A stretch of DNA of 64,000 nucleotides, from contig JAQGDQ010000002.1 in the NCBI GenBank assembly GCA_030141605.1, positions 2,767,001 to 2,831,000 of the forward strand. The letters are read 5' to 3'. Position 1 is the first letter of the stretch. Each line of letters starts with the position of its first letter. Shown here in pieces: positions 2,780 to 46,100 of the stretch. The notes under the pieces are model-generated. The model was not told the origin of the DNA and made no database searches. It saw only the letters and a program-made list of their open reading frames with translations. This DNA comes from Tubiluchus corallicola. Taxonomy: Eukaryota > Priapulida > Priapulimorpha > Priapulimorphida > Tubiluchidae. Both the position numbers and the translations under genes were made by a program.

Positions 2780-4656
2780 CGAGTCCACATTCTTTTTGCC
2801 ATTGGTGTTTTTATAGCAAGCCCTTGTAGTGAGTTTGTTCAAATTCTTCAATGAAGTTAGATTACTTAACTTAATTAGTGCTTGAGTTCTTTTTTTTAGG
2901 TTATCTAATTTGCATTCAACTAAATTATGCCTTTTTGAGAACAGTATTTCAAACTTTTTTGATGTGAAATGTTCCGAAATAGTGTTCTTAGTTTTGACGG
3001 TGCTGTGCAAACCAAAGTTACATTGAAGCGGTTATCTTATTAGTAAATTTTGCCTGATATGCTCTACCAGTCACAGCACTGAAGGCAATATCTTATTATG
3101 CTCAGTTCACCTATTACTGACACATAAAGAAAATTTTTGTTATTCTAGTAAAACAAGTAATCTCTGTCATAATGTATGTAGTGTGTAAAATGTTCTACAA
3201 GATCTGAAATCCTGACATTTGTAATTAATGGTTAATACCATTTGACAAGAGAAAAAGATCTGTACAGCAATATAGGGAAAATAATTTAATTTCATGTGCC
3301 AGCCAGTATTTGACAGTTACCAATGAAGTTAACTGAAATTTTGTGTACTGTTAGTGTTTTAGCACTGATATTAACGAAAATTTAAGTAATGGTAAGTTAG
3401 TGATAGGCTGATAAGTAGGGAAACAGTTTGAGTTAACAGATAAATTGCACGTTTAAACCAAGCTTGTCAACTCGAAAACGTATTGCTCTCACTTTTAGTA
3501 GGTTTCAATATTGTTACAACCCATAACCAATAACTAATTGTTTGATTCTTTCCTGATGGGTGCGCCTGTCATTTTGATGGGATAAGTAAAAACTGTGTTG
3601 TCTTAATTTCCTGCCTTTCAAGTGCAAAGGCTTGTATGTAGTGTGCTTGTAAATGCACACTTAAAATGGTAATAAGGTACTATTTGCAAATAACACATGT
3701 GTACTTGCATAGCAAAATCGTCCATAAGTAGGCAATTAAGCTTTTCTAGCTATTCACACATCCTGAATCTCCAGTTCATAAGGATCATTTTGATACCAAG
3801 CTCTTTGCTCTATGTTGTTTCTAAGCTGAGATAATCCACATTGAAGTTGAAATGTATGCTATGCACTGAAAAACAATCTTGAGTAAATCGCTATTAAAGT
3901 CAGCCATTGTTTTTTGTCGCATCTCTACAAAACACTTAGCAACTGTACGAAAGTGTGCATTTGCAAGAACACATTGAAGTTATGTTTATATCTAGTAGAT
4001 GGTTTTTTCTGACGAAAATCTGGTCTTGTCAACAGAAAAAACCCGAAGCAAAATGAATGCTTCCACGAGCTACTATCAGAGTTTGAAACAAGTTTTTCAC
4101 AATTGCAGTACTAGTTTCCATTCAGAAAAGTAGGCATGGAGTTATAAAATTAAATTGTTAGTATTTTTTGGACATTTTCTTGATAATTTCATGCTAGAAT
4201 ATAAAAGTCCAATATATTTACCGTTTGTTTTTCTAAAACACAAAAAATTCACATCTAAAAAATGTTTTAGTGCATTTTTCTTTGAAGCATCATAACGTAG
4301 TTTTACTATGCCGACTTATGGATGGTTTTGGTTTGCAAGCACACATATAAATGCTGCAAGAGATGTAGATTGTATACGTAGAAACATAATATTTCGACTC
4401 CTATAATGGGAGTCATCATCAGCTGTTGATAACAAGAGCTTTTAAAAAATAGAACACGTATTTTTGAATATAGTTATGATGATATTCAAGCAAAGCTTCC
4501 ATTCAAGCAATATTTAATGATTTAAATGCGTTAAAGCTGTGTAGATGTATTTACAGCAGCAAGATAGTAAGCATGGTTAAATATAGACCAATGCATATAT
4601 AACATGCGTTCACAAAGTTATAATTGCTCCTGGCTGTTGATTTCTAGATGAAAGTT

Positions 4657-6476: not shown

Positions 6477-9400
6477 TCAGTAATTTCCATTTTCGTTAGT
6501 CCTGTGTCTCCTTGCTTGTGTGAAGTAGGCATATATTAAACCTAGTTTTGAAGCCACATAATTCCAGACTAAAGATTCAGGGTCTATAGATTCAGCATGC
6601 TCTAAAGATGAAACGCTTGATGATGCAGTTGGGCACATGATGTCTTCTGGTTTTAATTCATTCACACCAATTCCGTAGAGATGCTCGGGTTGTGAGCAGG
6701 TACCCCAAACATAAGGTTTTTCAACTGCATTGGCTATCCATTTCAGGTTGCATGTACAGCGTAGATTATTACCTAAAAATAAATAATGAATTGTAGTAAT
6801 GAATTATCTAGAATATAATTTGACAAAAAACCAATAGTTTCAATAAAGTGCCGGAAAAACAGCTTTTGTTTGCAAATTGATTAAAATAATTTTTTGCCAT
6901 AAAATCAAAATTGTCTTTACATAGTTTTGACTTTAAGTTTTGCACAGTTGAATCAGAGTGTTTGTTACTGCGCTACATTTGTAATAATTTTTGACAGCAC
7001 AAAAAAATCACAGCAATGCTAAATTTTCCAGTATGTGTTGCAGACTGCAGAGGCACTTGTTGAAGACTGAAAGAAGCTTGTAGTTACTGATTGTCTTGCC
7101 TCTTGTACATTTGAATTGCACCACTGTCTGCATTTGAAAATAACCTCTATAAACAATACAGCCGTCACGTGTGACAAAAAGACAAGCTTGTGTTATTATC
7201 TATCAGGGCCAGTTTTAAGCCAATAAGGCTGATTTGTTCAAACTGGGCCTCGCTCCAACAGGGGGCTCCGTACACATGGTCAAGTGGAGGACACTATGAT
7301 GAATTTATGATGCTATGGGTGTTCAATGTGCATGAAGTTTCTTAATACTGCAAAGGCAGTGAAACTATTCAATCTGTCCTCGTATATCTATGTTTCATGT
7401 TTTTTGCTGATCGTTTGTTTATTTCTTTTGTAATTTCAGTTTATCGTCGCAATTTATGCTATATGCATTAGTTAGATCATCATTGGATTTTAATTTCACT
7501 AGTTTGTGGCCGATATTTAAACCCTCAACAACAATTTCACAAGAGAGACCAAATAATTTGGTGATGCTATCTGTAGAAGTTGACTTTAAAAAAAACCCAT
7601 GGACTTTGAAATGATTACGAAAGATTTCTAGGACAAAAAAGTCAGAAAAGTCTGTTTTTAGAAGACTTATGCGCAAACAGTATGTCAGTAATTATCTTGA
7701 CTTGTTGTTAGACATTAAAACTTTCACATGGGCTTTTGACTTTTAGTACCTCAACGCTTTTTGGCTGAGACTGGCATACTGCATGAAGCGTAAAACACCA
7801 CTCTTCAGCTTTTAGCGTAGACGGCCCCAATAACAATTTTCTAATTAGGCCCAGCACTTCCTAGCGCCGGCCCTGTCCATAATATAGGAATTTACTCTTA
7901 TTTCTCCGAAGGTATGCATGAACATGGAATTTATAAACTTTGTACATACCTTCTAAGCGGATGATCATTCCAGAGATGTCAGCAAATGATCTGCTTGAAA
8001 GCCATTCAATGTGATTATCTCTTAAATCCACAATTCGTAGCTTGGTCAAATTGCTGAATGCTATGTTTCCAACATATCCGAGATCATTCCTGTACAATCA
8101 ATATAACAGACTCGTTAAGGCAGCACACCCCAGCCACGTGGCAGACAACCATACCCACATGGAGTCATCAGGTGGAATTTGACCAAGATTCGCCTTTCAG
8201 TCTCTTTTCTCACTCTCAAACCCATTCAAGCAGGGCCAGGTGCACAGTTTCGCTATAGTGACAACAAAACGAAAGCTGAGCATCTCTCCCAACACAACCC
8301 TTTCAAACTTATTCACCACATATCAAGAGACAAATTAAAAAAGAGAGCTTAGCTTCCTTTAAGCTATCCTTAAAGAGACTACCCTTTTCTGCTCCAAGTA
8401 ATATTTCCCAAGCATCCACGTAATATGCCATAAGTGTATATACAAGCTGCATGAACTTCTAGCATAACCCATGTGGTGGTAAGCGAACAATTATCCATCA
8501 ACGCTAAGAACACAAGTACTGTATAGTGTTGACTAATGTTGCTACTATTCTTTTCTGTTGGTAAGAGACAGTACAAAGATGCACTTCATAAACCAGAGGT
8601 TATAGTTAGGAAGTCAAGCATCATTGGCACTGAGTTTTGCCCACATGGTAGTGATCGGACAAATATTTGATTATAATTTTAATTATAATTCCGAAGTTAA
8701 AACAAGATGAAAATAAAAGTACACAACTAAGAATAAATGTGTGTAAAATGTCAAATACATAAATCAGTAAGGTAATAAATAAATGAAATGCTAAAAATAA
8801 TGAAAAGAGAAAAAGTATTGCAAACATAAATTTGAAACATAACTGCAGTGTACTTGTGCTACTACGTATCTTAAAGTGCCACTTTTTACCAATAGTCTGT
8901 AATATATAAAATTGCTAAGGTGCAAGAACCAGTTTTTATTACCGGCACTTATACATGAATTTGCTTTACAATTCATAGGTCTGCGACTAAGTAATGATCA
9001 CTTAGTCATCATTTGTATATTTGTCTGTAGTCATCACTTGTATATTTGACTGGCAGCATTTCTTCATTTGAAATTTCACAAAGTTAATGAAAAATATACC
9101 TTTTTAATGCTAACTCTGTCATTGCTTCTGTAAAGGACTGTAGAGCACTATCGGCAAGTGAAGAAATGTTATTGTAATTAAGATGAAGAATTCTCAGTTT
9201 CGGCATGAGAGGTACTGTGGTCTTGTTGAAAGTTTGGAAACTGTTACCATCGAGATACAGATATTGTAAATTTAGCACTTGTTTTCCACCGCTTGTAGTT
9301 TGAATACTGCCTTCTCGTAGCTCATATTTTTTGCTTATTGATCTATCAGTCCATTCTACTAGTGCATCTTCAAAGTATGAGATAAAATTATTAGAGAGAT

Positions 9401-10703
9401 CAAGAACATGTAAATTTTTCATTTTGGTCAGTGACGATGTGATTTCAATTGAATTGTTTTGAAGCAATAGCAGTTTAAGTTTCTTATTTCTTCTAAATGC
9501 ATATATGTTGATTTTGCTGATACGGTTATTTGAAATATCTAATGATTCTAATGCATGTGCATTGTCAGTCAACTTGGTATTTACTTCAGAAATTAAATTT
9601 CTGTCAAGTCGAAGGTGACGAAGTGACTGTGGCCACGTGCCATTCTGTGATATATTTCTTATTTTGTTTTTAGTTAGTATTATTTCTCTTAGTACACTTT
9701 TTTCAGAAAACCAATTGTCAACTGTTTCTATTTTATTCACTGCAAGGTCAATAGTTTTAAGTGATGTCCAGTTAGCATACGTCTTAGGTGCAATGTACTT
9801 TAACTCATTATTAGACATATAAACAACTCTGATAGATTTAGTGCTTAAGCCAGTCAATGCATCTGCAGCAAAACTACTGATCTTGTTATGAGCTAAGTTT
9901 AGAATTTTGAGATTTGGCAGATCCTGAAAGCACTTTGGTGGTATGGTTTCAATTTCATTTCCATCTAACCATATCTCTTGCAGATTTATCAGTCCAGTAA
10001 ATGGACATGTTATTGATGCGATTTTATTTGTACTCAAAACAAGTCGGCGCAGTTCCGTCATTTCACTAAACGTTCCTCCATCAATGCTGTCAACTAGACC
10101 TCCAGTTAAGTAAAATACCTGCAGGTTTCTAGATGGCACATTGCCTATTTCTCTAATAGGATTTTCTACAAGAGTTAAGCTTGCAAGCTTTGTGAAGCCA
10201 AACAGAAAGGGCATTTCTTCTATTTTATTGCTCTGAATCTCAAGCAGTTCCAAAGAATCCTTAAGAGCTGAAAGAGTGCCAGGTGCAATATATTGCAGCT
10301 GGAGGTGATGAAGGTAAAGTCGACGAACAGTGACATTTCTTAGGGCTGCTTCACCTAGCTGAGTCACCAAACTGTCCGTTATGTATAGTGAATCGATTGT
10401 AACATTTGAGAATTTGGAGTCTAGGATCCTCAACATATGTCCTGGTTCTCTACTGTTACACTCGACCCATAATTCTTCTTTTGTTGTTATGTGGCATGTG
10501 CATGGCATAGTATTTTCTGCTAATGGACACCACTGCAATTGAAGTTCAACTGTTTTCTCTAATAGTTGTTTATCTGTGTGTTCACATATCCACGTTGCTG
10601 TTGCATGCTTGCCACTAACTCTAGAACATGAGGTGATCGAATTTTGATTCAAAACTAGCATCAGTAACACTGTAAGTGCTCTGCACCTCTTCGGGTTGCT
10701 CAT
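6477..10703 (-). CDS. Secreted leucine-rich-repeat protein (679 aa, three exons)
   Basis: Minus-strand exons 10703-9100, 8089-7950 and 6772-6477 join in phase (AG|G, then G|GT) and give 679 residues. ATG at 10703 precedes a hydrophobic signal peptide (residues ~8-25). A short cysteine block, WCP...CTC...VEC (C59, C68, C70, C82), acts as an LRR N-cap. About 20 LRRs follow (LxxLxLxxNxI type) from ~95 to 580. The last exon encodes a typical LRR C-cap (GNNLRCTCNLKW, C587/C589/C607/C628) and a hydrophilic tail with no membrane segment. The CP-x-CTC N-cap resembles the arthropod family that includes the non-catalytic subunit of Oplophorus luciferase; that assignment is from memory. Likely extracellular adhesion or binding protein; ligand unknown. 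The longest single ORF alone would miss the C-cap. Confidence 0.85.
7204..7875. mobile_element. hAT-like element in intron 2 of the LRR gene
   Basis: Starts CAGGGCCAGTTTTAAG and ends ...CTAGCGCCGGCCCTG, giving inverted CAGGGCC ends. The flanking octamers (TTATCTAT and TCCATAAT) do not match, so the insertion is old or the borders are off. A minus-strand 85-codon ORF (7676-7419) inside may be a transposase scrap, but no diagnostic motif was seen. The right end stops only 74 bases from the exon starting at 7950. Confidence 0.6.
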
Positions 10704-11632
10704 TCTGCAGGCTGTTAATTTTTAAAGATGTCGCTTATACCAAAAGTGCTAATTTCAATACACTTAACTCTTGTTCTTTGTCATTTCAACAATGACACGT
10801 TCTGGTCATCTTATCACATTATCTACTCTCTAACGTTCACCGGGAATTGTAGTAGGTTCACACACTAACACTGCTCAACATAAACAGTAAGCTGCTTACA
10901 GTTAGTCGTTTTATTGTACAGATTTATCTGTCAATAAGAATGTGATCTTTGGCTGTTCAGTCTGACTTGTTATTATAAGAAGTCAATATAGTAGATATTA
11001 ACATATCAAGTAAGCAGATTTATTTACACAAAAACAAAACTACATTTATCTACTGTCTGTTACTGTCTGATCAATCTTATGTGTATTTATATACATGCTA
11101 AGTATATAACAGGCAAAACAACAAATTTGTAGGTTAAAGCTAAGGACAGTTCATTTATTTCTGCATCTTGAACTTAAAAATGAGTATGTTTCAACTATTA
11201 TTGCCTGGGTTACTGTTTTTTTACCTAAATTCTTAGTTATGAACCTTTCTTTTTGTGCTATAATGTTTGCAGAACAGATATGATGTTATTACACTCTTCT
11301 ACCATGCATTTCCTTTTTTCTAGGATGTTTTCTGTATGGTCTACTTAAATCCTAGGTAGTTTGAAAAAAATCGATAGTTGAAATAATGCTAGTCAGTGCT
11401 CACTTTCTTGCTTGATTAAATGAGCCAGGCTAATCAAGTATCAGTTTCCTTTTTAGGAAACTTTCTAAGAATTCTACACAAGGCAAAGCTGTCAATAAAA
11501 CTATACAACATGTGTAAACAGAGTCTATTTATTACTGATTTGTAACAAATGAGATCTTATATTCTTATGTTTTTACAGCCTTAACAAACTAATAAAAGTA
11601 TTTTAGTGTTTGGTATTTAAAGACTGAAACTA
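10704..11632. other. Spacer between LRR gene and gustatory-like gene (both minus strand)
   Basis: Expected to hold the LRR promoter and the 3' UTR of the upstream 7TM gene. No coding exon seen. AATAAA on the minus strand at 11533-11528 lies about 100 bases past the 7TM stop and is a reasonable polyadenylation signal. Confidence 0.5.
11528..11533 (-). terminator. Polyadenylation signal of the gustatory-receptor-like gene
   Basis: AATAAA on the minus strand, about 100 bases downstream of the stop codon of the 7TM ORF. Confidence 0.45.
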
Positions 11633-14600
11633 TCAATAACCACCTCCAATGGCACCGACTTGGCACAGAAACACAACAACAAAAGCCACTGGTAGTGTCA
11701 CGCCAAATAGATAAGACGACTTTACTGGAATCTGAAATATTTTAGCCTGTAAGTTAAATGTTGCTAGAAACAGAAGAAGGGAATCTAGTTCGTCTGCATC
11801 AGTATCCTGATAGCCAAATGGTCGAGCTCGAATAGCATGACCCAGTTTACTTAATGAGGAAAATGAAGCAGTGACACGAGCTGCCTGAACAAGAGGTATA
11901 AACAGTATGCCTGTCCACAGAATTAGTGCTGTCACTGTGTGTGCATAACTCACCCATCCAGTTATTAATTCGTGGGTTATGAGAGCATAAACAATTAATG
12001 CTGTGAAACAACCAAAATTGTACATAAGCAGAGATACTGTCATCGCTGACTGGTTGTTTAGCGTTTTCAGCAGTTTATGCATTTCTTGAATTTCTTTGTA
12101 AACTTCTTGCAATGGTATGGCTCGTTCATAGACCCTCTCCCCTAATCCACGTACTGCATATATGAGCAGTTGACACTGTACTGCATATCCAGTTACTATA
12201 GTTATATACACTAAGTGGATAAATGCCAGACATGTGACTAAAAGAATTGTCAACACAATGTCTCCCACTTTACCAGCTATGCATATCCATCTACTAAACA
12301 CTAAGCCACCACCCAGGGAAATGCGGAAAACTAAGTCACCAATGGATAGCAACAACCAAACCAAGCCAAGAAGCAACAGTAGTCTTAGTGCTCTTATTAA
12401 GTTTTTCTGAGACAGATAACCAGAAAATGGATATGGCGATGTTTGAACAAACACTGTTTCCATTAATGTTTGAATATACTCCGAGCTTCCGTATCGCATA
12501 GCATAGAAGGCATGGAAGTAAGCACAGAGGTGTAACAAGTCAGGTAAAATTAAATTCATGTGCAGTGTCCTAATTGGATAAGATGACACTTTATTGCCCA
12601 AAAGAGGCACAGTTGAATTATGTCCCAGATAGACCATTTTATCAGTCCGAAGACTTGCAGCAAACTGTAACACGTAACCAAGAATTATGATTGCCAACAC
12701 AATTACAGGATAAATAATGTTCATTACTTTACATAAGCAAGTTGATATACGCCATTGAGGCTCGTCTGGGATCGGCCGCCATCCTAACACCATCATTAGT
12801 CGTAGGTAAGGTGCAAGTACATTACGTTTACAGTATTCTAGCGCTATGTTGGTTTGGCTGTACTGCATATGTGGTATGTTGGCATCAACAGAGACCTCAA
12901 CAGTGCTGAACTCTCCATCACCATCTTCACTTTGATCACAACTTGGGCACACATCAGATGGCACTTCTGCAAACTGGCTAGACTGATAAGTGGGATGAGA
13001 AAGAGATGCACTTTGAGAAAATGCCGTACCAGGAGGTTGCAGAAAATGCTTGTCCATGTACTTGGTAGCTGTGTTGTTTGAGTTATTTGTTACCTCAGTG
13101 GGTTTACTGCAGTAGTAGTCTCCAAAGGAATGACTTCCCTGCAAAATGACAACAACTCAAATGAATATAATATTGTATAGTAGTTAGTATTTTAGGATTT
13201 TTCACTCTGTACTGTATTACACGATTGACAAACGAAGTACTATGCTAAACGATATATGGCAGATTTACAATAATTTTTACTGAAAAGTCATGCGTAATAG
13301 TGTTGTAGATCTTATCAGAGCAATTACGGACTGGTAATTAACACATTTGCTGTTTTTGACATAGCTGAGTCAAAAATATGCAGTAGTTAAATAGCATCTA
13401 TCTGTTCAACAATAATTTTAGCAAATGGCAATATCAGTCCTGTAGACGCTGTTGACAACTTGGCAGTAGTGTGATACATAATAATTGTAGAAAAAAATTG
13501 ATATTTTTATACAGTTTGGCAAGTGAGGATACAATAAATCATTGATTTAAAGTAGATTGTTGTGATGGAGTTAGAATCTGAAATGGCTTACTTGCATTCT
13601 GATACATTCCTTTTCTGACAGCAGTATCACAGATGAAACCACCCACAGCCAGTATCTAAGCAGTTACCCATCCATTTACTAACCTAGCCTGGCATTGCTT
13701 AACATTGTACACAAGGAACAAAGGTAGTGCACATTATAAACTGGTGCTCCTTAATCAGTAAATGGTGCCCAATTAAAATGTCGTGTTTGTTTTATAAACC
13801 TCTGCTAACAAGCAAACTTTTAGAGACAGTGTGAAATCGTAACTCAAAACACAACAATGAATGGCCTTATGTAATAAAAACATCTACTGACTTAGCTTTT
13901 ACGTTGCGATGTGCATTGGATACAAAGCATTTTGCTGAACATTTGTAGCATTTATACAACTGCAGATTATCCGTTTCAGCAGCAACTACTGAGTCTGATA
14001 TTATTAAACTTTTTCAATATTACAAGCTTGTTTGAGTCGTGTGAGTCGATAACGTGCGTGAAACACCTGTTTTTAAGCTTCAGATGTGGCATCACCGTGA
14101 GCAAATTTAGAAACTACAATAATAATTATATGATATGAAGATAACTTCTAATAAAACGCAAAAATTTGCAAAAAGTAAGCATTGGGCACTCCCATGTATC
14201 TGCAATTTACACTAAGCTTTCAGGTAGTATTAATCATTAAAAATAAAATAATTACCGCGGCAATACCTTGTTCTTTGCTAATGCTTCATAACGTTCATCT
14301 TAATATTCTATTACAGTACAAGTTTTACAACACAGGCACAAACAGATTTATTTGGTTACTTCTATTTTAAACCAACTCTTCACTTTTATTACAGACAACA
14401 GGCACACAGGGCTTCACGGAGGAATTCAGTATGTATAGGCCTATAAATTATTTCGATTTTCAAGTTTTAAGTAGGAAGATATGTCTGAATGAAACAGCTC
14501 ACTGTCGGTTTTTTCGTGCGCAGCATGCCTTGATATCCAGGCAAGTTTATCAACTATTCAAACCTAGTAACCTTGAGAAAAGCTAGGTCGCTGAACTAAA

Positions 14601-18553: not shown

Positions 18554-18567
18554 CACGTGTATAAAAG
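18487..18567 (+). promoter_or_regulatory. TATA promoter with two CACGTG boxes for the Phe/Tyr-rich secreted protein
   Basis: TATAAAAG at 18560-18567 is preceded at once by CACGTG (18554-18559); another CACGTG lies at 18487-18492. A start near 18590 would give a 5' UTR exon ending at 18649, just before GTAAGAA. A 5' UTR intron (18650-19335) follows, ending TGCAG nine bases before the ATG. CACGTG is the classic binding site of bHLH-zip factors; which factor is unknown. Confidence 0.6.
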
Positions 18568-19344
18568 GGGATGAAAGATAGCTGGAAAGCACGTTACCTG
18601 GCTAACATTTGAAGCATTGACGTCTTATCGTTTCATTGGTAGTATCAAGGTAAGAAATTGCAATTATTGGCATAGTATAGGTTTGTTTAATACCAGTATA
18701 TCAGTTTCAATCCCGAAAATTAACGCTTTTAAAAAAAGTAATCTAACTTGTAAGCGTTAATTGTAAGTAGGCCTAAACTTTATTTTCATTACACTAAACT
18801 AATTGAGTAATATTCTTTAATTTATAATATGAACAGTTTCCTTCTGATGATAACTTAAATTTAGTGTTGTTTACGGAAAAACGATTACCACTAACTACCA
18901 CCACCCCTTTTGGATCCCGGCCATACGGGATCCATTGTGTCAAAGCATATACAAACTGTGGCAAATCGGTGGTCAAGTGTGCTTAGTTGGTATGCGAAAT
19001 GGAAAAAATTAAAAAAAACACGTATCATTATTTTTCTGCCTCACTTTGGTGCAGGTCATTCAGTTTATTGCTTATGTTGGCATTTGGCTTGATTAAACTT
19101 TGTTCTATTGTTTAAGGTGCATGTGAATTTTACAGTGAGATACACTGCATTTTTTTACAGTTCTTATGCAGATCATCCTCACGACATACCAGTGTTACTC
19201 CATTTCCTAAATTTCTTATTGACCTCATCAGCTGCGTTACTTGGGGATAATCTCAAGTTTTGCCGGCTTCTATATTGTTTACGAGTGAAGTAATGGTTTT
19301 ATATAATAAAGTTAACTAGAAAATTTATTCTGCAGGTAAACGTC

Positions 19345-22300
19345 ATGAAGGTGTTTGCTCTTGCCACAGTACTTCTAGCGGCGTCCGCTCACGCGGTTTT
19401 CCAACCGGCAGTGGAAAACATCCTTCCCTATTTCGACCAAGGGCAGGTGGATCAGGTAGAAATTACACCAATATAGATTTTGCTGTAGAGTCATTTTGAT
19501 CGATTTTTTTCTATTTAGCCGGCATTTGTTTTTTTTCTACTTTCCTCGGTAGGCTAGACTGCTCGTTTCTTTTTTCTATTGTATGCACATTCGTTATAAC
19601 TTTTGAATAACATTGAATAAACCATTAGCACTGATTATTGCACAAGCATTATTTCAGTGTTGTACATCGCTTGTTTTATAAATTAAGCAGTCACAAAAAT
19701 CATCCATTACGTGTACTGTAATTAATAGCTAACCTATTTACAACCTTTTCGGTCGACCTAAGAAAGATTTTTAAAAAGTTCTTATTGTTGCAACATTAAT
19801 GCTTTAGTGATTAGCTGTGATGAATGATAAAAGTAAGCATCAACTAATTCATAATTTACAAGACAAGTGTTGATGATGATAGAACATGTTTTACTCTTTT
19901 TTCGCTAGGATGTGTACAACCCGTACGGCAACGTAGACACGCCCACGATAGACGATTTCAAGACGAACTTTAACTTCGACAAAACCGTCTTCCAGCGCTT
20001 TTTGAAAAGTCGCTTCTTTTACAGGTAAGTTGATGCGTTTGTTTGACAAATTAATTAAGATTTGCCGTAACAAAATCTTACTGTTTTTCATTGAGTTCAA
20101 ATTTTACATTATTTATTATTTATTCTCCGGCACTTTAACTCTTAATAACTCGTAAGTCTTGCAAGCTAGGGTCGCCAAACTCACAGGGTTGGTAGCCCTG
20201 GGCAGGGGACGTACAAATGTATAGCAACCGCTGACCACTGGTATTTTTCACAAAATTTTTCACTGAATTTTTTTTCACAAGTAGTTGCGTACTGTGGGGC
20301 AGGTGTGCACCTGGGGTTTAAAAAGCTGACAAGTGTTTTCGTTCATTTCCTCCTGTCAAACCACCGTCTCACAGTCAACCAGTTAAATATTTACATTGCT
20401 CTTTAACGTTTTTTTTCAATTCAATTCAGAATTTTATTTATCTCTCTTAATAAGATTATATAGGTATGAAATTATAGCTAGTAGATTATATTAACAAAAT
20501 GGAGACGAGGTGGCGATTGGCCAGGAGCCATCGAGCAGCCACCCCTATACAAATAAACGATTTCTAGATATTACAGCTTTTTTAACACAATATATGTGTT
20601 ATGTCACTGAGTTGTGCATACTATATGCTGTGGATTTAATACAACAGAAATACAGTTATGTGACACGACAGCCTACAATAGCAGCCTACAAAAGCCAAAC
20701 TATATTATTTTAGATTCGTCCAGAGCGATATCTTCAGAGAATTCTTCCGATTTGATGGTTTGGTCGATTATCTACGAGATACCACCGTTCTTGAGTTTTT
20801 CCGGGATCCGGAATTCAGACGCACTTATGATTATGATCCAACCTATTTCGTCAAGTTCTTACAGAGTCCGGAATTATTCAGGTAAATTTTAAGAAAATTT
20901 ACGATGATGAGGCTGTAAATGGAAGCCATGTGACTTGACTTGATCGTGTAGCAGACTTTTGCTCTAAGACATTCCCCTGAATCTCTATATGTAGGCGGAA
21001 GCACTCAAGTTTAATACATGTAATATGAGCCACAGAACCAGTAAGGTGCTGTGGAAAAATAAGCAAGAAAATACCAAACAACTACTTGTAGCTTGTCTGA
21101 TGCTCGATACTTGAATGATTTTCTTAGTGATTTTTGTCAATGACCTTGGTGCAGTATTACCTGTGGTTATTCATTATGCAACTAAATGAATTATTCCAGT
21201 GTTAATCGTTTGTATCCGTATGTGTGTGTCCGTATATGTGTGAGCACAAAATTTCTGCGTCCCAACACCTGGTGACCTGGAGCACGTGTTCTTTAGCTTT
21301 CGAAATGCTGCACTTACCCATGGTTTATTAACTTCATTTTCGCTATTCCATTTAGGTACTTCGAAACGGACGAATTCCTCAACTTCTTCAGAGATTTCCG
21401 CCGTGGACCTTTCAGACGATACCTCTATGGCGACTACTTCGTCAAACATGTCGGAAATGAGTTTTTCACTGATTTCTTGAAGACATCAGATATCAGCGAT
21501 TCTTTCTTAGAGTTCTTCGACGAATACTTGCCACTTGATAGGGGTAAGTGCTCAGTAGGTGTGTACATGATTATAAGCTATGAGACTAAAATACTTGAAA
21601 ATTTTGATTACCGAAGAAATCAAACAATGAACCTATATAGCCAAGCATGGTCTGTGCCACTGCTTATAACTTTCTAGAGTGAATACGAACTATAATATTG
21701 CATTAGCTTATTAACAAGAGGGTTGCACTTATGTAGCCCAGCTTGGTCTGTGCCACTGCTTACAAGTTTCTAGAGTGAATATGGACTATAATATTGCCTC
21801 AGTTTTTTAACAAGAAGGTTGTTTCAGTTACAATTACTTTTGGTCGACGGCTCATCTGGATGTTGTTGTCGTCGTCGTCGTCGTCTTTCTTCTTCTTGTT
21901 CTTCTTTTTCTCGTCCTCCCTTGTCTGGCAAATGATCCTTTTGAAATTAGAATTGTTAATAATTATGCAACAGAGTCAAGGCTTGCTTGGCAGCAACTTT
22001 GCATTTACCATTTAACAAACAGTTTGCGAAAATTGAAGAAAGTTACAATAGTTACAAAATTACATTCTTGAAATTGCCCCATTTTGTATTAGTCACATAA
22101 TTAGTGAATTGACTATATAAATTTAGTAACATGTTTTTGTCACTTTCAGAATCAAGAGAGTTCTTTCCATACAGGAGATACATGCTCCTATATATTCTAC
22201 ATGATCCTTACTTTTACTTCCATGTCTACCAATACGGACGCACTCTTCCCGTGTATAAGAAGATCTTTTACAACTTCCCACATCTGGATGAGATTTTCCA

Positions 22301-23305
22301 GAATTTCCGGTCAGTAATACAAATTATGATATTAGAAAACCATGTTGCAATGTTTAATTCTTGGTGATGGAGTAGTGAGTGAATTTCAGTTTTTGTTACT
22401 ATAGTTAGTAACATTACAGCAATGAACGGTCCTTACAGGAGCTATAATAAAAAACGGATATTTTTTTCACAAAAAGCTAATGTTATAGTTGCTACAAGTG
22501 CTTCTCAAAATTTCCAGAAAAAAAAACTTTTCTATTTTACATGTATTTCTCACTATAATTTTGCAGTTATCATACTGGGACGACGACATTCACACCGGTG
22601 GACAACACTCAGCTGCCAAGGTTCACTGAAACTGAGCATGAATTTTTCCGGCAAATCCCTGTGGAACGTCTCACTCCACGTTTGATCAATTATTACAGAG
22701 AACGTTTCGGTATCCCAGAGGAGTACCTCTACTACCTGTTGAAGCGTTACAATCCCACATACTTCAGAAACAGATGGACTGTACGGCCAGGCCAGTTCAC
22801 TGAGGAGGTGCCAAAACGCACTTTTTACCCAGTCGAGAATATTGTTCGTCGTCCATATTATCCAGTTAATAACGAAATTGGGGGGTTATTCCGCACTAAT
22901 GACAGATTTGTACCTTACAATCGATACCCTTTTACCTTCTATCCCACCAGTCGAGTTTTTCCAACTACATGGTTTCCCAGAAATGAATTTTTTCCCAGAA
23001 ATAAACCCACGTACAATGTCGACCGGCCCTATCTCACATATCCGGTTGATCAGTTTTACCCTACAAGTAACACTCCCACAGTAACTAACCGCTTTTTCCC
23101 ATCCCGCGAAGACACATTGATTAATCACTACCCTTTTTACATTAACAATTTCCCCATTGATCAGTACTATTACCCAAAACAGACTGTTGTCCCATATAAT
23201 ACCAGATACCCCCGCTTTGATGTGAACGATGTTCCTAATTATGTCGATTACACAAACTACAGAGACGTACGACCTTATTACAGAAATAATAAGTTACAAT
23301 ATTAA
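19345..23305 (+). CDS. Unrecognised secreted Phe/Tyr-rich, cysteine-free protein (493 aa, six coding exons)
   Basis: Exons 19345-19455, 19909-20024, 20714-20881, 21356-21543, 22150-22309 and 22567-23305 join in phase with clean splice sites. Start: MKVFALATVLLAASAHA, a textbook signal peptide. I do not recognise the family. The mature protein has no cysteine and no membrane segment. Residues 76-186 contain repeated modules with DxFxxFF-like cores (81-87, 137-143, 180-186), each preceded by a YFVK-type block (120-123, 159-162). Residues ~280-493 are Tyr/Pro/Asn/Arg-rich with recurring (F/Y)YP(V/T) motifs. The first exons use many C-ending codons (TTC, GTC, AAC), unlike the AT-rich surroundings. 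Most junctions split an Arg codon, which suggests exon duplication. A cuticle, tube, glue or other extracellular-matrix protein is a reasonable guess. AATAAA sits at 23357. Confidence 0.85.
21634..21825. repeat. Two tandem copies of a ~96-bp unit in intron 4 of the secreted-protein gene
   Basis: TCTGTGCCACTGCTTA occurs at 21651 and again at 21747, with long similar flanks on both sides (TTTCTAGAGTGAATA, ACTATAATATTGC, TTAACAAGA). The copies differ at several bases, so the duplication is not recent. Confidence 0.85.
21865..21918. repeat. GTC/TTC trinucleotide tract
   Basis: Runs of GTC followed by TTC/TTG triplets and CTCGTCC in intron 4 of the secreted-protein gene. Simple low-complexity DNA. 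Confidence 0.8.
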
Positions 23306-23356: not shown

Positions 23357-23362
23357 AATAAA
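23357..23362 (+). terminator. Polyadenylation signal of the secreted-protein gene
   Basis: AATAAA 52 bases after the TAA stop. A second AATAAA at 23539-23544 could be an alternative distal signal. Confidence 0.55.
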
Positions 23363-25597: not shown

Positions 25598-28117
25598 ATG
25601 AAAACATGGACAGAAATTTTGTGGCTATATGTAGCTTTGGTAAGTTAACTATAATAATAAAGGTTTTGCTAAAGTCGCTGACCAACGTTGAATGTTGCGA
25701 CATTGTTGTCAAATGTAAAACTGCAATTCACAAATATTCGCAGAAGCTTACATGACTAAAAAACTAGAAATACAGTGTGGAATGACAAGACAAATAATGT
25801 TGGCATTATGATTAGAAAGTTGCAATTTTTAGAATTACTAGTTACGTATATGAGTGCCATATATCAAGTACAATGGCCATTAGCAGGAACGCAGCTTTGC
25901 ATTCTAAAAAACTATCTATAATTACTACAACACAATTATAGCAATTTAATTAAAATTGTCCTTGAATGGACGATATACACCAGTTTTATTACTGTCCGTC
26001 TGGGAATACTGAACAATCTCTAGCTACGTATATGAATCACACAGGCCTGAAATTTACAGGTACGTTAGGTACAGTTTCTGCAAGGAAAAATTTGATTTGG
26101 GAGTCATTCGGCGCTTAAACAACGAATTGTAGCTGTGCGGGTAGCAGGAGTCGAAAATCTTTTGCAAAAAATGCTCTAGTTATAAAATGCCAGATATAGT
26201 TATAAACAGTAGCGGCAGATGATTATGAAAATCAATAAGTTTATGTTTTGTGTAAATTTAAGCTCTGTAATAATAGTTAACCCAATTCATTCAACACTGC
26301 AGATGGGTTTTGTGGCTATGGCTATTCCTCACGGGTATTCTGGAGGTTATGCAGATGTCCATGACGTTGGTGGTTCCAGCTTTGGTTACACTGCTGGCGG
26401 AGGACCAACTGGAGCAGGTAGTGGAAGCCACCATGGCGGTAGCAGCATGAGTAGTCACGGTAGATCACGTAATGGACATTATGGAACTTACGACATGCAT
26501 CAAAGCGGCGACCATGGAGGCAGTCAATCTGGAGGTGGTTATGGTGGTGCGTATGACAACCAACAGATGGGCAGCCTTGGAAGCCAGCATGGAAGTACAA
26601 GTGGCGGAATGCAACAGCGTGGAAGCATTGGAGGCAGGTACTCAACCAGCAGTGGATATGGCCAGGGATCAGGAATTGGCTACTCCAGTGGAACTCGTGG
26701 ATCAGGTGGATATGGTGGCGGCAGAAGCTATGGTGCTGGTAGAGGCAGCAGTGGGTTTGGGGCAGGAGCTGGAGCTGGCAGTCATGCAGGTGGAAGTTCG
26801 GGAGGTTCAGCTGGAGGCTATAGTGGAAGTGGCGTAGGTGGACATAGTGGTGGACATGCCGGTGGGAGTGCATATGGTTATGGTGGAGCTGGTGGTGGAA
26901 GTACAGGTGGTGGAAGTGGGGGAGGTTTTGGTGGTTCAGCTGGCAGTGGTTATGGTGGCAACAGCAACTCTGCTAGTGGAGGTGGTGGTGGTTATGGTGG
27001 AGGAGGAGCAGGTGGGGGAGGTGGTGGTTACATGAATGATGGTAAACATGTACTTCGTAGAAGTGGAGTGGGATATGGTCATAGGAGTGCTGGACCCGCA
27101 TATGGAAATAGAGGACCTCATGCAGCTCACATTGAAGGAAATAATGAATATGATAGCCAAGATGATAGTAGCAACTATGAAGCACATCCTAGTAGAAGTT
27201 ATGAAGGGGCAAACATTGCCCCTTATCCACAAGCAGCTAATGTTCATAGAGGTGGTTATGGTCACCGTGGTTATGTTCAAGACGATGACGGTCCTTCACT
27301 ACCACCACATCCTGGTCGTCCTGGGTCACCTGGTCCACCATCACCACCAAATATAAAAGTACTGCATGGGCCACCATCCCCTCCACCCGGACCACCTGGA
27401 CCACCACAAGGTCATCCACAACGTCCCACAGTTCCTGGCCACCCAGGACGACCTCGTTTAGTTGCACCACCGGGACATCCAGCAGCTCAGGGGCCACCAG
27501 GGAGTCCACCTGATCGTCCGGGACATCCAGCAGTTATTCAGTTCAATAGTGCAGTTCCAACTGCCCCAGGTGATCCCGGTGGGCCTGCTTATAAAAATAC
27601 TATACCTGAAGTACCAGGTGCCAGTAGAGCTCCTAACGCACTAGATACAAGTCCACTAAAAGTACCAGGATCACCTGGTGGCCCTGGAGCACCCTCAGTT
27701 CCTAATCTAAGTTATACTCCTCCAGGAGCACCACAAGTACCAGGAGCACCTAGCGAACCTGAACTAATTTTACCAGTGCCAGAGATAAATGCACCAGAGG
27801 CAAGAATTGCAGGTGTCCCAGCACAAAGAGGAATAAAAGCCACCTTTCCTAGGCCCCCTATGGCACCAATGATACCAAATATTCCAGCCCTGAGGCAACC
27901 AAAGATATCTATTCCAACTATACCAAACATCCCTTTAATTAACCTGAAAGGTCCAAAGATAGGCATGCTTCCAACGATTCCTGAAATCAATCCGGGTGGA
28001 CCAAGTCCACACCCTCGAACCATTGGGGGAGATCCACATCCAATTATAAAGCACAATAATGTTCACCCTCTAGGTCCAATAATGACATTTAATGGTCATA
28101 TGGGATTTGGTCATTAA
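25598..28117 (+). CDS. Secreted Gly-rich / Pro-Gly-rich structural-type protein (618 aa, two coding exons)
   Basis: Coding exon 1 (25598-25639, 14 codons, ends TTG|GTAAGTT) joins 26303-28117 after ACACTGCAG. The splice makes a signal peptide (MKTWTEILWLYVALMGFVAMA) that neither exon has alone; the open frame continuing upstream of 26303 is intron. Residues ~24-257 are Gly/Ser/Tyr repeats (GGYGG, GSGG, GGGGGGY). ~258-343 is a Tyr/His/Asp/Asn-rich linker. ~344-510 is Pro-rich with short collagen-like stretches (GRPGSPGPP, GPPGPP) and PGHP motifs. ~520-590 is Ile/Pro-rich (IPNIP, IPTIP). There is no cysteine. The GXY runs are too short for a real triple helix. Likely extracellular (cuticle, silk, adhesive or egg-coat type); family not recognised. 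AATAAA lies 19 bases after the stop. Confidence 0.82.
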
Positions 28118-37100: not shown

Positions 37101-40100
37101 TAAGGACCTTTATATTTTTTTTACACTTCAAATCTTAATAAAGTAAAGCAAAAATATAATTTGCCCTAAAATCTTGTAGACCTACAAGATAGAAGACATA
37201 GAAGAGACAATAACTGGCTTCATACTAATGTGGCTTATTTGGACAGGCATTAGCTCTGAATAGCTAGCACACAATTAAGAGGCAATATCGTTTAGTGAGG
37301 TACATAATAGTTTTCACTAACAATAAAATTGCACTTAACTCATTAGAACCTTCATCTATTAATACAGAATGTTGAGTACAAATTTAATAATGAAAAGTTT
37401 TGTGCCAATATTTCAGGAACAACAAAGAATGAATGAAAACACCGTCTAAATCAGAAAATCAGTTATTAAAATGTGCAATAGGAATCAGTCAAGTTGGAAA
37501 ATCCCGGACAAGTGCTGAAGTCAAAAGTAAGATTTGGTCATTCGAGGCTGGAGATGTATTGGAGAAGTAACTAAAGTTAATGATGAGATATAAAAATGAG
37601 CAAGATGGTTAATGTGTTTTGAAAAACCATGGAAAACATCACCAACAGCACAATACCACAAATTCTAGACAACATAAATGATACTTTAGAAACTGTAAGA
37701 AAAGATTCAAATGTAGCACCAGCACAAGATATAAAGAAGTTGATTACAACCATATGGTGGATTTATAAGGTGCTATTTCCAACTGTTTTGATCGTTGGAT
37801 TTATTGGAAACAGTTTAAATTTGATTGTGCTGTGGGGAAAAAGAAAAAAGCTAAGTTCTGTAACGTACGTATATTTACGTGGGATAGCTATTGCTGATTT
37901 CATGACAATAGTTAGCTATACCGTGTATTTGGCAACTCAGTTTCTCATAAATCCAATAAAGAAACCAAAAGCTCTTGCCACCTACTATGCACATGCTCAT
38001 TTTCCATTTCTAAACACTTTTATAGCTACGAGTAATTTATTGGTTATGACAGTAACAGTTGATCGATTCTTGTCAATATGCTTTCCCCTGAAAACACTGG
38101 GAATGCGTACTCGCTGTTTTGCACGAATCACTGTTATCACATGTGCTCTGGTTGCATTTGCAATTCATATTCCAGACATGTTAGCGAACAGAGTAGCAAA
38201 GTTTCGAGATTTAAGATACAATGTAACGTATTGGGATCCCACGCCTAATCAAATAATCACAGAGGCAAATTGGTATAAATTGGTTTGGCCATGGGTGACA
38301 GTGTTGGTTGTTCATGTGTTACCATTATGTAGTCTGATTACTTTGAACCCATTAATACTCAGTGCACTTCGTCAGCGTTCTCTTAAACGCCAGGAAATGA
38401 CGCAGGCAAAAGTAATCAATGCAGACACATTGAAGTATGTAAGAGAAGAACGGAATCTCACTATTCTACTGGTAGCAATCTCAGTAGTATTCATATTCTG
38501 CACACTTCCGATGAGTGTTGTTAAGCTGCTGGATCGGATGCAAAGCCATTTACAAAAAATTATAAAGTATAAGATGCTCCTACACAGTGCCAACCTGATT
38601 GAAGTTGTCAACTATGCAGCAAATTTCTATGCATATAGTATTACCAATGCTCAGTTTCGTAAGGCATGCATAGAAATCTTCAAAAAATGCATTAAAGTGT
38701 TTTCATTCCAAAATCGCACTCTGGCAGTTATTCACCAAAGTAGAAATCAGGGATCATCTATAGACTCAATCAGGACAATTGGAACACAGGTCTCGCTGGA
38801 TGAATTGCAGGAGAAATCAAAACAATGGCAAGATTTTGACACTCAGGAAGGCTACAACCAATCAACTTTCTTGTAAGAAGAAGCCTCCTCAATTTCGCTC
38901 AGTTATATAATATTATCATAACTAGTAAGAGCTGTCATTAGATGGAATTGAAGTCTGGTTAAAAATATAAAGACCAAGGACAAAAAACACGATGCAGTAC
39001 TTTACCTGGCAAGTTTCGGCGGTAGCCATCATCAGCCAACTATGCCAGAATGGATCTGTTTCATAGCTTTAAGTTTAATTGGCTGACGATTGCTGTTTGC
39101 ACAGCGAAACATACTAACTAACTAAAGTTCTGTATCCTGTTTTTTTACAAAGTTTACCTTCGTATTTTTTTATTAGTAAGATTTTTTGAATGCAAATAAC
39201 CCAGAATGACTATTATGTAAGTGAGAGTTAAAGCAAAAGCCAAGTCTCAGGGGAAGTTGAGCTCATTTTAATATCTAAGAAAATGTTACGAAGTTTCAGC
39301 AATAAAATTGCGATAAGCACCTAGTGTAATTAAGAAAGTCAATTTAAAGTCGCGAACGAAAAACAACATAATCCGTTACCATGCAGTATAAACACTTATC
39401 CTACCAGGTGCTTCAGCGAACTTCTTTTGCAGCTACAGTTACCATTATAAACTATAAGCAATCCAAAATGGGATAAAGGAGAGATTATTAACACTATTTT
39501 TTGCTTTTTGATGAATCCCGTTGCCCACTACATAATGAAATAAAAATAACGATAATATAATAGTCTCCAGCCCTGCAAGTTAACGTAAACAAAGTAACAG
39601 AATAATTACTTTAACAAGCCAAAACTGAATTCTATAAGCTAAGTAAACTGCCCAGCACCTTTTATAAGCAGGCAACTTTGCAGAATTTGATGCTTATCTG
39701 TAATTATAGTAGGCGCCACTTAATAGACTCAATTGCTTAATTGACTCAAAAATGCCTGGAACGGGCAGCTTCTATTCAAATATACATAAAAACTATCGGT
39801 AAGTGACTCAAATAACTCCGCATAATTGACTCAGTATTTTTCCTTCACCTACTTAAAATAAGATATTTGTATGTACCCAAAGAACCTTTCCTACTGTTAT
39901 GTCATCTTTACTTCCCTTTTGTGCACTATGTATGCAGAAACAAACATGTTAAGTACCATTTTGTTTATAAGCAGGTACGTTTATCATGCACTAATATGGT
40001 AGCATAGCGGTTTGGCTTTGAATGTGTTACCCAAAGAATTTCTGAAAGCTAAACATTTAATCACTTGCCTAGTGGTTTCCTTTTGATGCTCTCGTTGCAA

Positions 40101-43100: not shown

Positions 43101-46100
43101 ATTATAATGTGTTAATGGTTGTATAAATTCATATAATGAATAACTATATCAGTCGTCGTTTTCAAATACAATCATTTAATGAAAATTCATTTTGAATAAA
43201 TGGATTTGTGATTGCTTTACCATGACAGTTTTTATAAAAAATTCATAGGTGGATGAAAAATGATGCACTTGTCAACATTAGACAGCTGGCGTTGAAGTCA
43301 AAGTCTAAAAAAAGACTAAATAAGAAATAGTAGTAAAAAGTAAAACTACACTACAATTGGAATATATAGAGCAGCTACTAAACAAAATTAATAAATACAT
43401 TGGCACAAAGGCTATAGCTGACCTAGATTTCTAATTATTTTGTTTACCATATAAATACACTGGACTGCCTACATGAGTACCTCATTGACAAGGATGTGTT
43501 TAATCACATGTGTTTGTCCATAGCATGTGGATCTATTGACATGACACAATAAATTTGTCTGGAAATATAAGCCTTTAGTGTAATGCAAGAGAAACAGAAC
43601 CTCGCTGTAGCAAGCTCAGCGATAAATATCCTTTGTTTTGGCCAGCTTTAACAGTTTCCAAGCACATCATTTATTTATACACATACTCATAATCTAATAC
43701 TTCTGTAGCATCTGCAAAAATGTCACTAAAATCGCCAAAACTGTTAACACAAAAGCTGAGACTTTGCTTGAAAAATAACATATTCAGCAGATGTAAACTG
43801 CTAAAACAGTTCAGCTTAAAGGAACTTATAGGTCTCACAGTTTGCATAGAGTAGCCAAAAGTAGGTACAGGTAATAGCATTTTTTCAGAAGCAACTGAAT
43901 AATAGTTAAAAAACAAAAAGCAAATACATGTGAGTGATATAGCACATTATTCAGAGTTCTATTTCTACAACAACTTAAATGAAATAATTAAGGTTTAGAA
44001 GTCTAGCATGTCTCTAAATCAAAACTTACTTGCTTTTAAATAAACATGCACATTTATATTCAAATTTACAGTGTAGGATCGTAGGGTTGTGATAAGTAAG
44101 GCGCTACTGTAATTTGCTATAATTCCTTGTAGATAGCGCTTTGCAAATATTTGATATAGGTGAAAGATTTGCTAATCGCAAATCCTTTGTTGCCTTCAGT
44201 GCCTTTAGTTAGACAGATGAGACGCAACTGCTTGATGTAGAAGTTAGTTTGTCAATTACCCAATTAGGATGATCAAGTTTGTGCTAATGATGACTTTGGA
44301 CAAAAAGATATGCACCTAAAAAGCAGACAATTATTCTGACAGTGACAGCATGATTGTACAAGCCTTGTTTATATTTACTGCCAAGTTTAAAAGTATTTTT
44401 TGTCAAATACCACACAGCGCTATTGTACTAAGCAATGCACCTGCTGCACGTTTGTTTAGTATTGGTGCTGGGATTAATGTGAAAAAATAAATAGACTACC
44501 TAAATTAACTTTTACTTTTTGTTTTCAAAAATCCTGTGTTTTATCTTTCTCAGTTTTATTAAGGTTTAGATAAGCATAAAGACACAGCATAAAAAAGACA
44601 AAATTGTCTTTATAATTTTTTATAATTGTCATTGTAATGACATTTCAGAGTTTTTTAATTAGCAATTTACTAGTCAGATGTACCTGTAGCTAAGTACTTT
44701 TTAATAGTAGCTGATCCAACACTGCAAATTTAAAAGTCGGCAGTAAAAATAATTAACAAGATCGTAACAATGCTATATTATAGACTCACTTCTCTCCAAC
44801 ATCAATATCCCTGAGTCCAATATACACAATATCTTTAGCTTTCAAACTGCAATAGAGAAACATATCATGAGATTAATCAGTTAGTGAACTTTGCTTCATC
44901 AATTCACATCCCAAATCTGTCTCAGGTCAATACTTTACCTTGGCTTCATCCACTCCCATCCAGGCATCTTAGGAATAAACTGTGCTAACTCCTTGATTGG
45001 AAAAGCTCCGCTCATGCCATGAATGTGCCCAGTGAAGCTAGTCAGTGCTGTGTTAATATCGGCATGTGCGTCTACCCAAATGACGCACAGGTGGGGGTGC
45101 GCCCGAGTGTGTCCATATATGGCGCCTGCGCTAAGGCTGTGATCACCCCCGAGATTTACGCAGATTCCCTGTTCTTGAACGGACTTCTTCACGGCATCAG
45201 AGATCTGTTCAGATAAAGACAACAATAAAATTGTGCTGCAATTTATGTCGGAAGTGAAGCTGATTAACAAGGAAAAGCTAGTAATATAATTTGCTTAAAA
45301 TAAGATATTGCAAGGCATACATTATTTACATTTACGACTCTGCTTACCAGTTTATTAGCTAAACCATTTGTGCGTGGGTACTTAATTCTGTTCGGACCAA
45401 AAGGTGGATCATCCTGCAGGATCTCAAACTCCAAATCCCCATAATCGTGTACTTCCCAACCTGAAAAGACGTAGTTTTGCAGGCATGAGCAGATTATTAA
45501 AATTGAAAAGAAAAAACCAGATCCTAGCAGAGACTGAATATTTGAATACCAAGAATTTACAAGCACATTCTTTACAGACAGATTTTACGAGCAATAAACA
45601 GACTTTCAAGGCTGGAACAGAAAAACGAATTTATGAGTATGGGAAACAGATGATATACATATGTGTGTGTGTGCATCTTGGGAATACGTCAGCTACAAAC
45701 TTTTATTTAATGCAAGATTTCGATAAATTTTTTTATCAATGCAAAACAAAACATTTACAAATCATTCAGCAGAAGGCATGCCATAATTTGATTGCAGCTA
45801 GCAATAATAAGACAGAACCATTTTCTAGATCAGTGCCACATACACTAGTTATTACACAAGGTTTGGTGGTTTGTCAGTTGGATTTGCATAAGAGCAAAGG
45901 TATCTGATACATCCAACATCCAAATATTGTAAATCAGGCCAACCACATTGACACTGTTGGTAAAAACCATGCAGATGAACTGACTGTAAGGTGCCAATTC
46001 TAAGTCCATATCTAATTAAAGCTAAAGCAAAAAAACAGCAATGCCCAGTGTGCTTGTTACTGACATCAAATAGACCAAGTTTTAAAATAGAACATTTGCT

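Follow-up and report, generated by a model that had tools for sequence, protein, structure and literature searches.

A cysteine-free, Phe/Tyr-rich protein with an old internal duplication in Tubiluchus corallicola, a candidate extracellular structural protein

What kind of protein does an apparently orphan gene of the priapulid Tubiluchus corallicola encode, and what might it do? The gene lies at positions 19345-23305 of a 64,000-nucleotide stretch of DNA, called the window below (assembly GCA_030141605.1, contig JAQGDQ010000002.1, positions 2,767,001 to 2,831,000 of the forward strand). An earlier note, made from the letters of this stretch, had described its product as a 493-residue secreted protein without Cys, rich in Phe and Tyr and of no known family. 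Our analysis suggests, at a probability of roughly 0.5, that this is a single-copy, lineage-restricted extracellular structural protein that self-assembles and is possibly cross-linked.

To derive the gene model, nearby GT donors and AG acceptors were combined by a script, and the 493-residue protein was recovered as the exact product of six GT-AG exons with intron phases, in order, of 0, 2, 2, 1 and 2. The six-exon model of the earlier note was thus reproduced exactly. Among the 32 possible joins five were free of stops, one of them giving this protein. The other four give 490-492 amino acids. Their differences are confined to the ends of exons 4 and 5, and a pair of these joins reads exon 5 in another frame, which would add two Cys. 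Judged by eye, the chosen splice sites look nearest to consensus. At the stop rate of the flanking DNA (0.0656 per codon), 493 open codons would arise by chance with a probability of about 3e-15, and the 248-codon open frame of the last exon with a probability of about 5e-8, both before allowing for the choice of joins. GC content is 0.43 in the coding sequence versus 0.344 in the five introns. The features of the gene, all on the + strand, are as follows.

18560-18567, +: TATA box (TATAAAAG) of a likely promoter, found by pattern and sequence; function putative
18590-18649, +: likely noncoding first exon as read from the sequence, its start a guess; donor AAG/gtaaga at 18649
19336-19344, +: probable remainder of the 5′ untranslated region (UTR) after the acceptor ctgcag, which immediately precedes 19336 and leaves nine bases up to the ATG
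19345-19455, +: coding exon 1, residues 1-37; signal-peptide-like start at 19345-19395 (residues 1-17)
19909-20024, +: coding exon 2, residues 38-76; first part of repeat copy 1 at 19954-20024
20714-20881, +: coding exon 3, residues 76-132; end of copy 1 at 20714-20750 and start of copy 2 at 20811-20881
21356-21543, +: coding exon 4, residues 132-195; end of copy 2 at 21356-21392 and a weaker copy 3 at about 21432-21533
22150-22309, +: coding exon 5, residues 195-248; alternative joins possible at both ends
22567-23305, +: coding exon 6 and stop, residues 248-493
22595-22774, +: predicted small helical bundle, residues ~258-317, from an AlphaFold2 model of exon 6 alone
22814-23302, +: tail rich in Tyr, Pro, Asn, Thr and Arg with [FY]P motifs, residues 331-493, predicted to be disordered from its low model confidence; motif enrichment tested by shuffling
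23357-23362, +: AATAAA polyadenylation-type signal, by pattern

The TATA box, the putative noncoding exon, the 5′ UTR intron and the AATAAA signal likely round off an ordinary gene. The intron between coding exons 4 and 5 also holds a 96-bp tandem duplication (21634-21821, + strand) with two copies and 86% matches.

The protein has a signal-peptide-like start, MKVFALATVLLAASAHA followed by V, which by eye agrees with the (-3,-1) rule for signal-peptide cleavage and so fits the signal peptide proposed earlier. The composition likewise bears out the description as Cys-free and aromatic-rich: Phe makes up 13.0%, Tyr 10.8%, Arg 9.7%, Pro 8.7% and Lys 2.8% of the whole protein, with 0 Cys. Phe and Tyr together reach 24%, and there are 53 tyrosines. 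The two halves have different biases, the first being dominated by Phe (17.8%) and the second by Tyr (12.6%), Pro (12.2%), Arg (11.4%) and Thr (11.4%). Minus the signal-peptide-like start, the protein has a mass of about 59.5 kDa and a calculated isoelectric point (pI) of 7.8, which combines an acidic block at residues 18-248 (net -8, calculated pI 5.09) with a basic block at residues 249-493 (net +9, calculated pI 9.45). The protein contains no N-glycosylation sequon. Dibasic pairs occur at eight places with irregular spacing, six of the eight lying outside the tail 331-493.

Comparison of the protein with itself points to an ancestral internal duplication, as the earlier note had supposed. 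The best self-match aligns residues 53-88 with 109-144 without gaps, at an offset of 56 that equals the length of exon 3. Its score of 78 was reached by 0 of 200 shuffles (37.5 ± 5.3), and the two segments share 13 of 36 residues and 55 of 108 bases. Both copies carry a phase-2 intron at the same repeat residue (R76 and R132), indicating either that the intron position was duplicated together with the unit or that both copies descend from one ancestral exon pair. As matches between introns 2 and 3 reach at most 14 bases and at best E=0.14, and hence show no convincing likeness, the duplication appears to be old. A weaker third copy at about residues 158-191 has YFVK and DxFxxFF, with an insertion. 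When whole exons were compared, exon 2 with exon 3 was the only pair matched by 0 of 300 shuffles (at least 5 of 300 for the other 14 pairs). When 56-residue units were cut across the exons, 53-108 with 109-164 and 109-164 with 165-220 each gave 0 of 300, and the other 13 pairs at least 16. The earlier idea of repeated exon modules therefore holds as one clear 56-codon duplication that spans an intron, with a weaker third copy, and finds no strong support in the other exon pairs. The note had further taken junctions in Arg codons after an aromatic residue as a sign of duplication. Such junctions are indeed present at three of the five introns (R76, R132 and R248, the last split CG/T). The argument is weak because a phase-2 intron after an exon end in AG forces Arg or Ser, so that two of the three (R76 and R132) largely follow from phase 2 and the AG/gt consensus. 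The true evidence for duplication is the ungapped alignment across the R76 and R132 junctions.

Short motifs divide the protein in the way described earlier, in both halves beyond shuffle expectation. In residues 18-248 DxFxxFF occurs three times (shuffle mean 0.13; 1 of 2000 shuffles reaches three) and YFVK twice (0 of 2000). In residues 249-493 we found [FY]YP[VT] four times (0 of 2000) and [FY]P 14 times (shuffle mean 6.5; 4 of 2000). The C-terminal half also matches itself, more weakly, with a score of 56 (shuffles 39.5 ± 5.9, 3 of 200). Hydrophobic residues in 55-190 follow a period of nine (z 3.9, P=0.0008 for the best of lags 3-30), and lag 9 by itself gives P=0.0004 in 53-108. This rhythm is only suggestive, since the stretch 55-190 was picked after the sequence had been seen. 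When periodicity was tested more crudely, on residues 63-146, a period of 14 (0 of 300 shuffles) came out ahead of 9 (15 of 300); 56 equals 4 × 14.

Structure prediction by AlphaFold2 was done on the single exons 4 and 6 rather than on the spliced chain. The exon 4 model has four helices at a mean predicted local distance difference test (pLDDT) score of 56.8. In the exon 6 model (mean pLDDT 47.4) a small helical bundle is predicted at residues ~258-317, with block means of 84-90 for 269-308, and residues 317-482 fall below 50. Across the tail 331-493 the block means are mostly 30-37, and the last ~15 residues average 56-67. The C-terminal tail is thus predicted to be of low order. Foldseek searches with the bundle returned no structure at E<=0.001, the best-ranked entries being unrelated enzymes with E>=0.46. 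The 81-residue bundle piece gave no Pfam family at E<=10. With VIA-align the top rows were homeodomains (best Z 4.9, root-mean-square deviation 3.9 over 59 residues). For helical bundles, this method treats Z values below about 13 as possibly no more than a common arrangement. We conclude no homeodomain homology from these rows, given Z<=4.9 and a nuclear role that clashes with the signal-peptide-like start.

Does the protein have relatives? Pfam gave no family for the spliced protein at E<=10, and four pieces (exons 3-5 and the bundle) gave a single match, of exon 3 to Chlamy_scaf (E=0.18), which we put down to chance. Sequence matches in the PDB were rejected, the best having E=1.2 for the whole protein and 0.13 for the bundle piece. 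In the genome of T. corallicola itself (343.5 Mb in 2344 contigs) the full protein matched only its own six exons, with no second copy found, and queries with residues 1-37 or with the bundle (69 residues) again matched only exons of this gene (one match for the bundle). Among the 3781 stop-to-stop frames of the window and a total of 100 kb flanking it, only the gene's own exons were matched by the whole protein (next best E 0.16) and by a hidden Markov model of the three repeat copies (next best E 0.61). Exon 6 gave 1 and 23 pattern matches in viral and prokaryotic collections, none of them confirmed. The literature search found no title or abstract opening that describes a protein of this layout, and none of the papers searched prints any of six short peptides of the protein. 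The earlier statement that it belongs to no known family therefore agrees with Pfam, the PDB and its own genome; relative to these and to the viral and prokaryotic collections, the protein is provisionally an orphan.

How could such a protein work? The signal-peptide-like start suggests secretion. Outside the cell, the acidic block (18-248) of short, Phe-rich and probably helical repeats may pack through its aromatic faces, and it could pair electrostatically with the basic, proline-broken, Tyr/Arg-rich second half of the same or an adjoining molecule. The outcome would be a dense phase or a fibrous layer formed without disulphides, which might be hardened by oxidation of the 53 tyrosines to DOPA or dityrosine. 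Such a layer might belong to an adhesive, a tube, a shell or an egg covering. The solid ground for this reading is what the DNA directly encodes, namely the open gene model, the composition, the repeats and the charge blocks. It is favoured by the signal-peptide-like start, 0 Cys, 24% Phe+Tyr and the opposite charge blocks; by the internal duplication, the nine-residue period and the enrichment of [FY]P and [FY]YP[VT]; and by the low-confidence helices of exon 4 and the bundle with a low-confidence tail predicted for exon 6. Further support comes from matrix-like genes within ~51 kb (a 618-residue Gly/Pro-rich protein, a Gly-Tyr/EGF gene and a Gly/Arg-rich open reading frame (ORF)), from tyrosinase-family matches in the genome (PF00264, 10 on 4 contigs) and from a precedent in quagga mussel byssus.

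Several points weigh against this reading. Composition is convergent and proves no function, and an ordinary folded domain could equally account for the helical N-terminal part. Across 18-248 as a whole the nine-residue signal is marginal (P=0.049), and lag 9 gives P=0.056 in 109-190. Lys is low at 2.8%, unlike in the byssal protein with YPTYPEKK repeats. A crude control for ORFs of biased composition flagged 11 in 164 kb near the gene versus 3 in 100 kb far from it; three of the 11 are exons of this gene, one is antisense to the Gly-rich gene and four are likely noise. Because only three then remain, the clustering of matrix-like genes is suggestive only. The material role put forward in the earlier note, deduced from DNA sequence, is plausible, with some matrix-like neighbours and tyrosinase-family exons in the genome. 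A more specific version is rather improbable: that the N-terminal half is an undescribed helical-repeat block, built from nine-residue Phe-rich units in an intron-spanning, duplicated 56-residue module, which together with the oppositely charged Tyr/Arg tail forms, as a single cysteine-free chain, an extracellular material able to coacervate by itself and to be cross-linked. If the structural reading is right, the protein would be a compact, disulphide-free secreted material in which a single chain carries both an acidic, aromatic, helical block and a basic tail of Tyr and Arg; such a design is easily expressed and tested, and would stand as a further architecture beside those of byssus, tubes, shells and cuticles.

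The N-terminal repeats might instead form a folded, soluble, secreted helical-repeat protein that binds a hydrophobic ligand (lipid or pigment) in a Phe-lined cavity and has a disordered tail. Bla g 1, the cockroach allergen, is the model for such a ligand cavity, and the family Ins_allergen_rp (PF06757) comprises Bla g 1 and microvillar proteins. As read from the sequence, short amphipathic-looking units such as SPELFRYFETDEFLNFF suit a cavity protein, as do the duplication, the nine-residue period and the helices predicted in exon 4; by eye these units resemble the short amphipathic, SPEF-like helical units of Ins_allergen_rp. The spliced protein, however, has no match to PF06757 or any other Pfam family at E<=10. 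Exons 3-5 and the bundle yield just the chance-level E=0.18, the exon 4 model reaches a mean pLDDT of just 56.8, and the genome gave 0 matches to PF06757, which is not proof of absence. The basic disordered tail and the Phe/Tyr richness also set this protein apart from Ins_allergen_rp. Membership in that family is therefore unsupported by its profile in the protein, the four pieces and the genome, and a ligand-binding role of the wider kind appears unlikely on balance. Were it a cavity protein after all, its Phe-rich helical repeat would be unusual. In either case this is an apparent lineage-specific gene whose internal duplication is the sole trace of its origin found here.

Other readings account for less of the sequence. 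With 24% Phe+Tyr, the protein could be a nutritional store of Tyr and Phe for later tanning, as are the aromatic-rich arylphorins of insects. It has, however, no hemocyanin/hexamerin domain, and PF00372 (hemocyanin/phenoloxidase) gave 0 genome matches at E<=0.001, which is not proof of absence. Storage proteins are often multicopy, whereas this gene was single in the own-genome searches, and its ordered repeats and [FY]P motifs surpass what composition leads one to expect; we consider storage quite unlikely. Much the same low standing goes to an immune or seminal role after secretion, or to a precursor that releases peptides from its disordered tail. Many orphan secreted proteins do belong to these types, and the eight dibasic pairs would suit a precursor, but most of the pairs lie outside the tail and lack the regular spacing of a peptide precursor. 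No repeated peptide was seen between cleavage sites, and some neighbours look structural. Very unlikely, finally, is a mis-joined model, with two adjoining genes or a wrong splice at exons 4/5 or 5/6. The five stop-free joins do differ at the borders of exons 4 and 5, and the last exon might in fact close another gene. Against this, the aromatic-rich composition runs on through exon 5 into exon 6, the model needs no alternative start or stop, and the chosen sites agree with consensus by eye.

For a structural protein, the nearest likenesses are to secreted, low-complexity structural proteins. The byssal or adhesive foot protein type combines a signal peptide with a Tyr/Pro-rich disordered chain; the C-terminal part fits this type, the start being judged by eye, and the Phe-rich N-terminal half does not. 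Mytilus foot protein 2 has EGF repeats with DOPA. Its likeness belongs to a gene ~47 kb away, with Gly-Tyr stretches and tandem EGF exons, and the Phe/Tyr-rich protein differs from it in having neither an EGF match nor Cys. One quagga mussel byssal protein has YPTYPEKK repeats, and several have N- and C-termini of opposite pI (PMC6474901). Like our presumably secreted protein, Dbfp2 and Dbfp9 of the dreissenids (quagga and zebra mussel) are secreted and Tyr-rich, Dbfp2 with YP(T/D) motifs and several such proteins with opposite-pI blocks (PMC6474901). Unlike them, our protein has much Phe and little Lys, contains a half of probably helical repeats and lacks a tandem array of short peptides. 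The shell matrix of the limpet Lottia gigantea contains uncharacterised extracellular proteins, of which one reaches 12% Y and another bears the name glycine and tyrosine-rich, plus EGF-domain proteins; among those looked at, none has a composition like that of our protein (PMC4094399).

The surroundings of the gene hold the following features.

9087-10721, -: leucine-rich repeat (LRR) protein
11636-13156, -: multi-pass membrane-like ORF of 507 codons that includes several hydrophobic segments and matches no Pfam family at E<=1; chemoreceptor-type look by eye
25598-25639 and 26303-28117, +: two-exon, 618-residue protein with a signal-peptide-like start, 24% Gly, 14% Pro, Cys-free
37623-38873, +: 7tm_1 receptor
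44938-45294, -: arginase exon
56337-56726, +: DEAD/ResIII helicase exon
53090-53413 of the window, -, and L018:8597-9815, +: likely remnants of LINE-type (long interspersed nuclear element) reverse transcriptase; L018:8597-9235 matches RVT_1, the rest by eye

The 618-residue neighbour is rich in Gly, Ser, His and Tyr in its first half and in Pro and Gly in its second, and Pfam shows nothing for its main ORF at E<=1. The gene ~47 kb upstream (L011:2553-5000, about 2739.5-2742.0 kb of the contig) has a signal-peptide-like start, Gly-Tyr stretches, an Arg-rich end and at least six EGF-bearing exons, two of them tested by profile and the others judged by eye. Two nearly identical copies of an EGF exon lie at 3672-3848 and 3936-4117 of L011, and by eye the TATA box and the 5′ UTR intron layout are similar to those of the Phe/Tyr-rich gene. 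Two Gly/Arg-rich ORFs (L010:8478-8864 and L010:1617-1949) carry Cys-rich segments that are alike by eye; the former has no Pfam match at E<=0.1.

The arthropod setting implied by the earlier note was not supported by the genome, whose gene families, taken by themselves, would suggest a bilaterian that is probably no arthropod and perhaps a spiralian. Neither the arthropod cuticle family PF00379 (Chitin_bind_4; also without a match in the protein) nor PF00372 gave a match at E<=0.001, and odorant-binding PF01395 gave 0 matches, none of which proves absence. PF14830, used as a test for a mollusc, had 0 matches as well, and COX1 was not found. The family 7tm_6, which we take to be an insect odorant-receptor family, had six genome matches (best E 6.8e-6), on their own a weak pointer in the opposite direction. 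Three of these fall in long open frames (392-417 amino acids) at 85-115 kb of contig C2218, a possible intron-poor cluster of chemoreceptor-like genes. A cnidarian source is disfavoured by a menin fragment in the genome, with 22 of its 23 PDB rows, most of them presumably human, at 100-107 bits and 3re2, presumably from Nematostella, at 65 bits.

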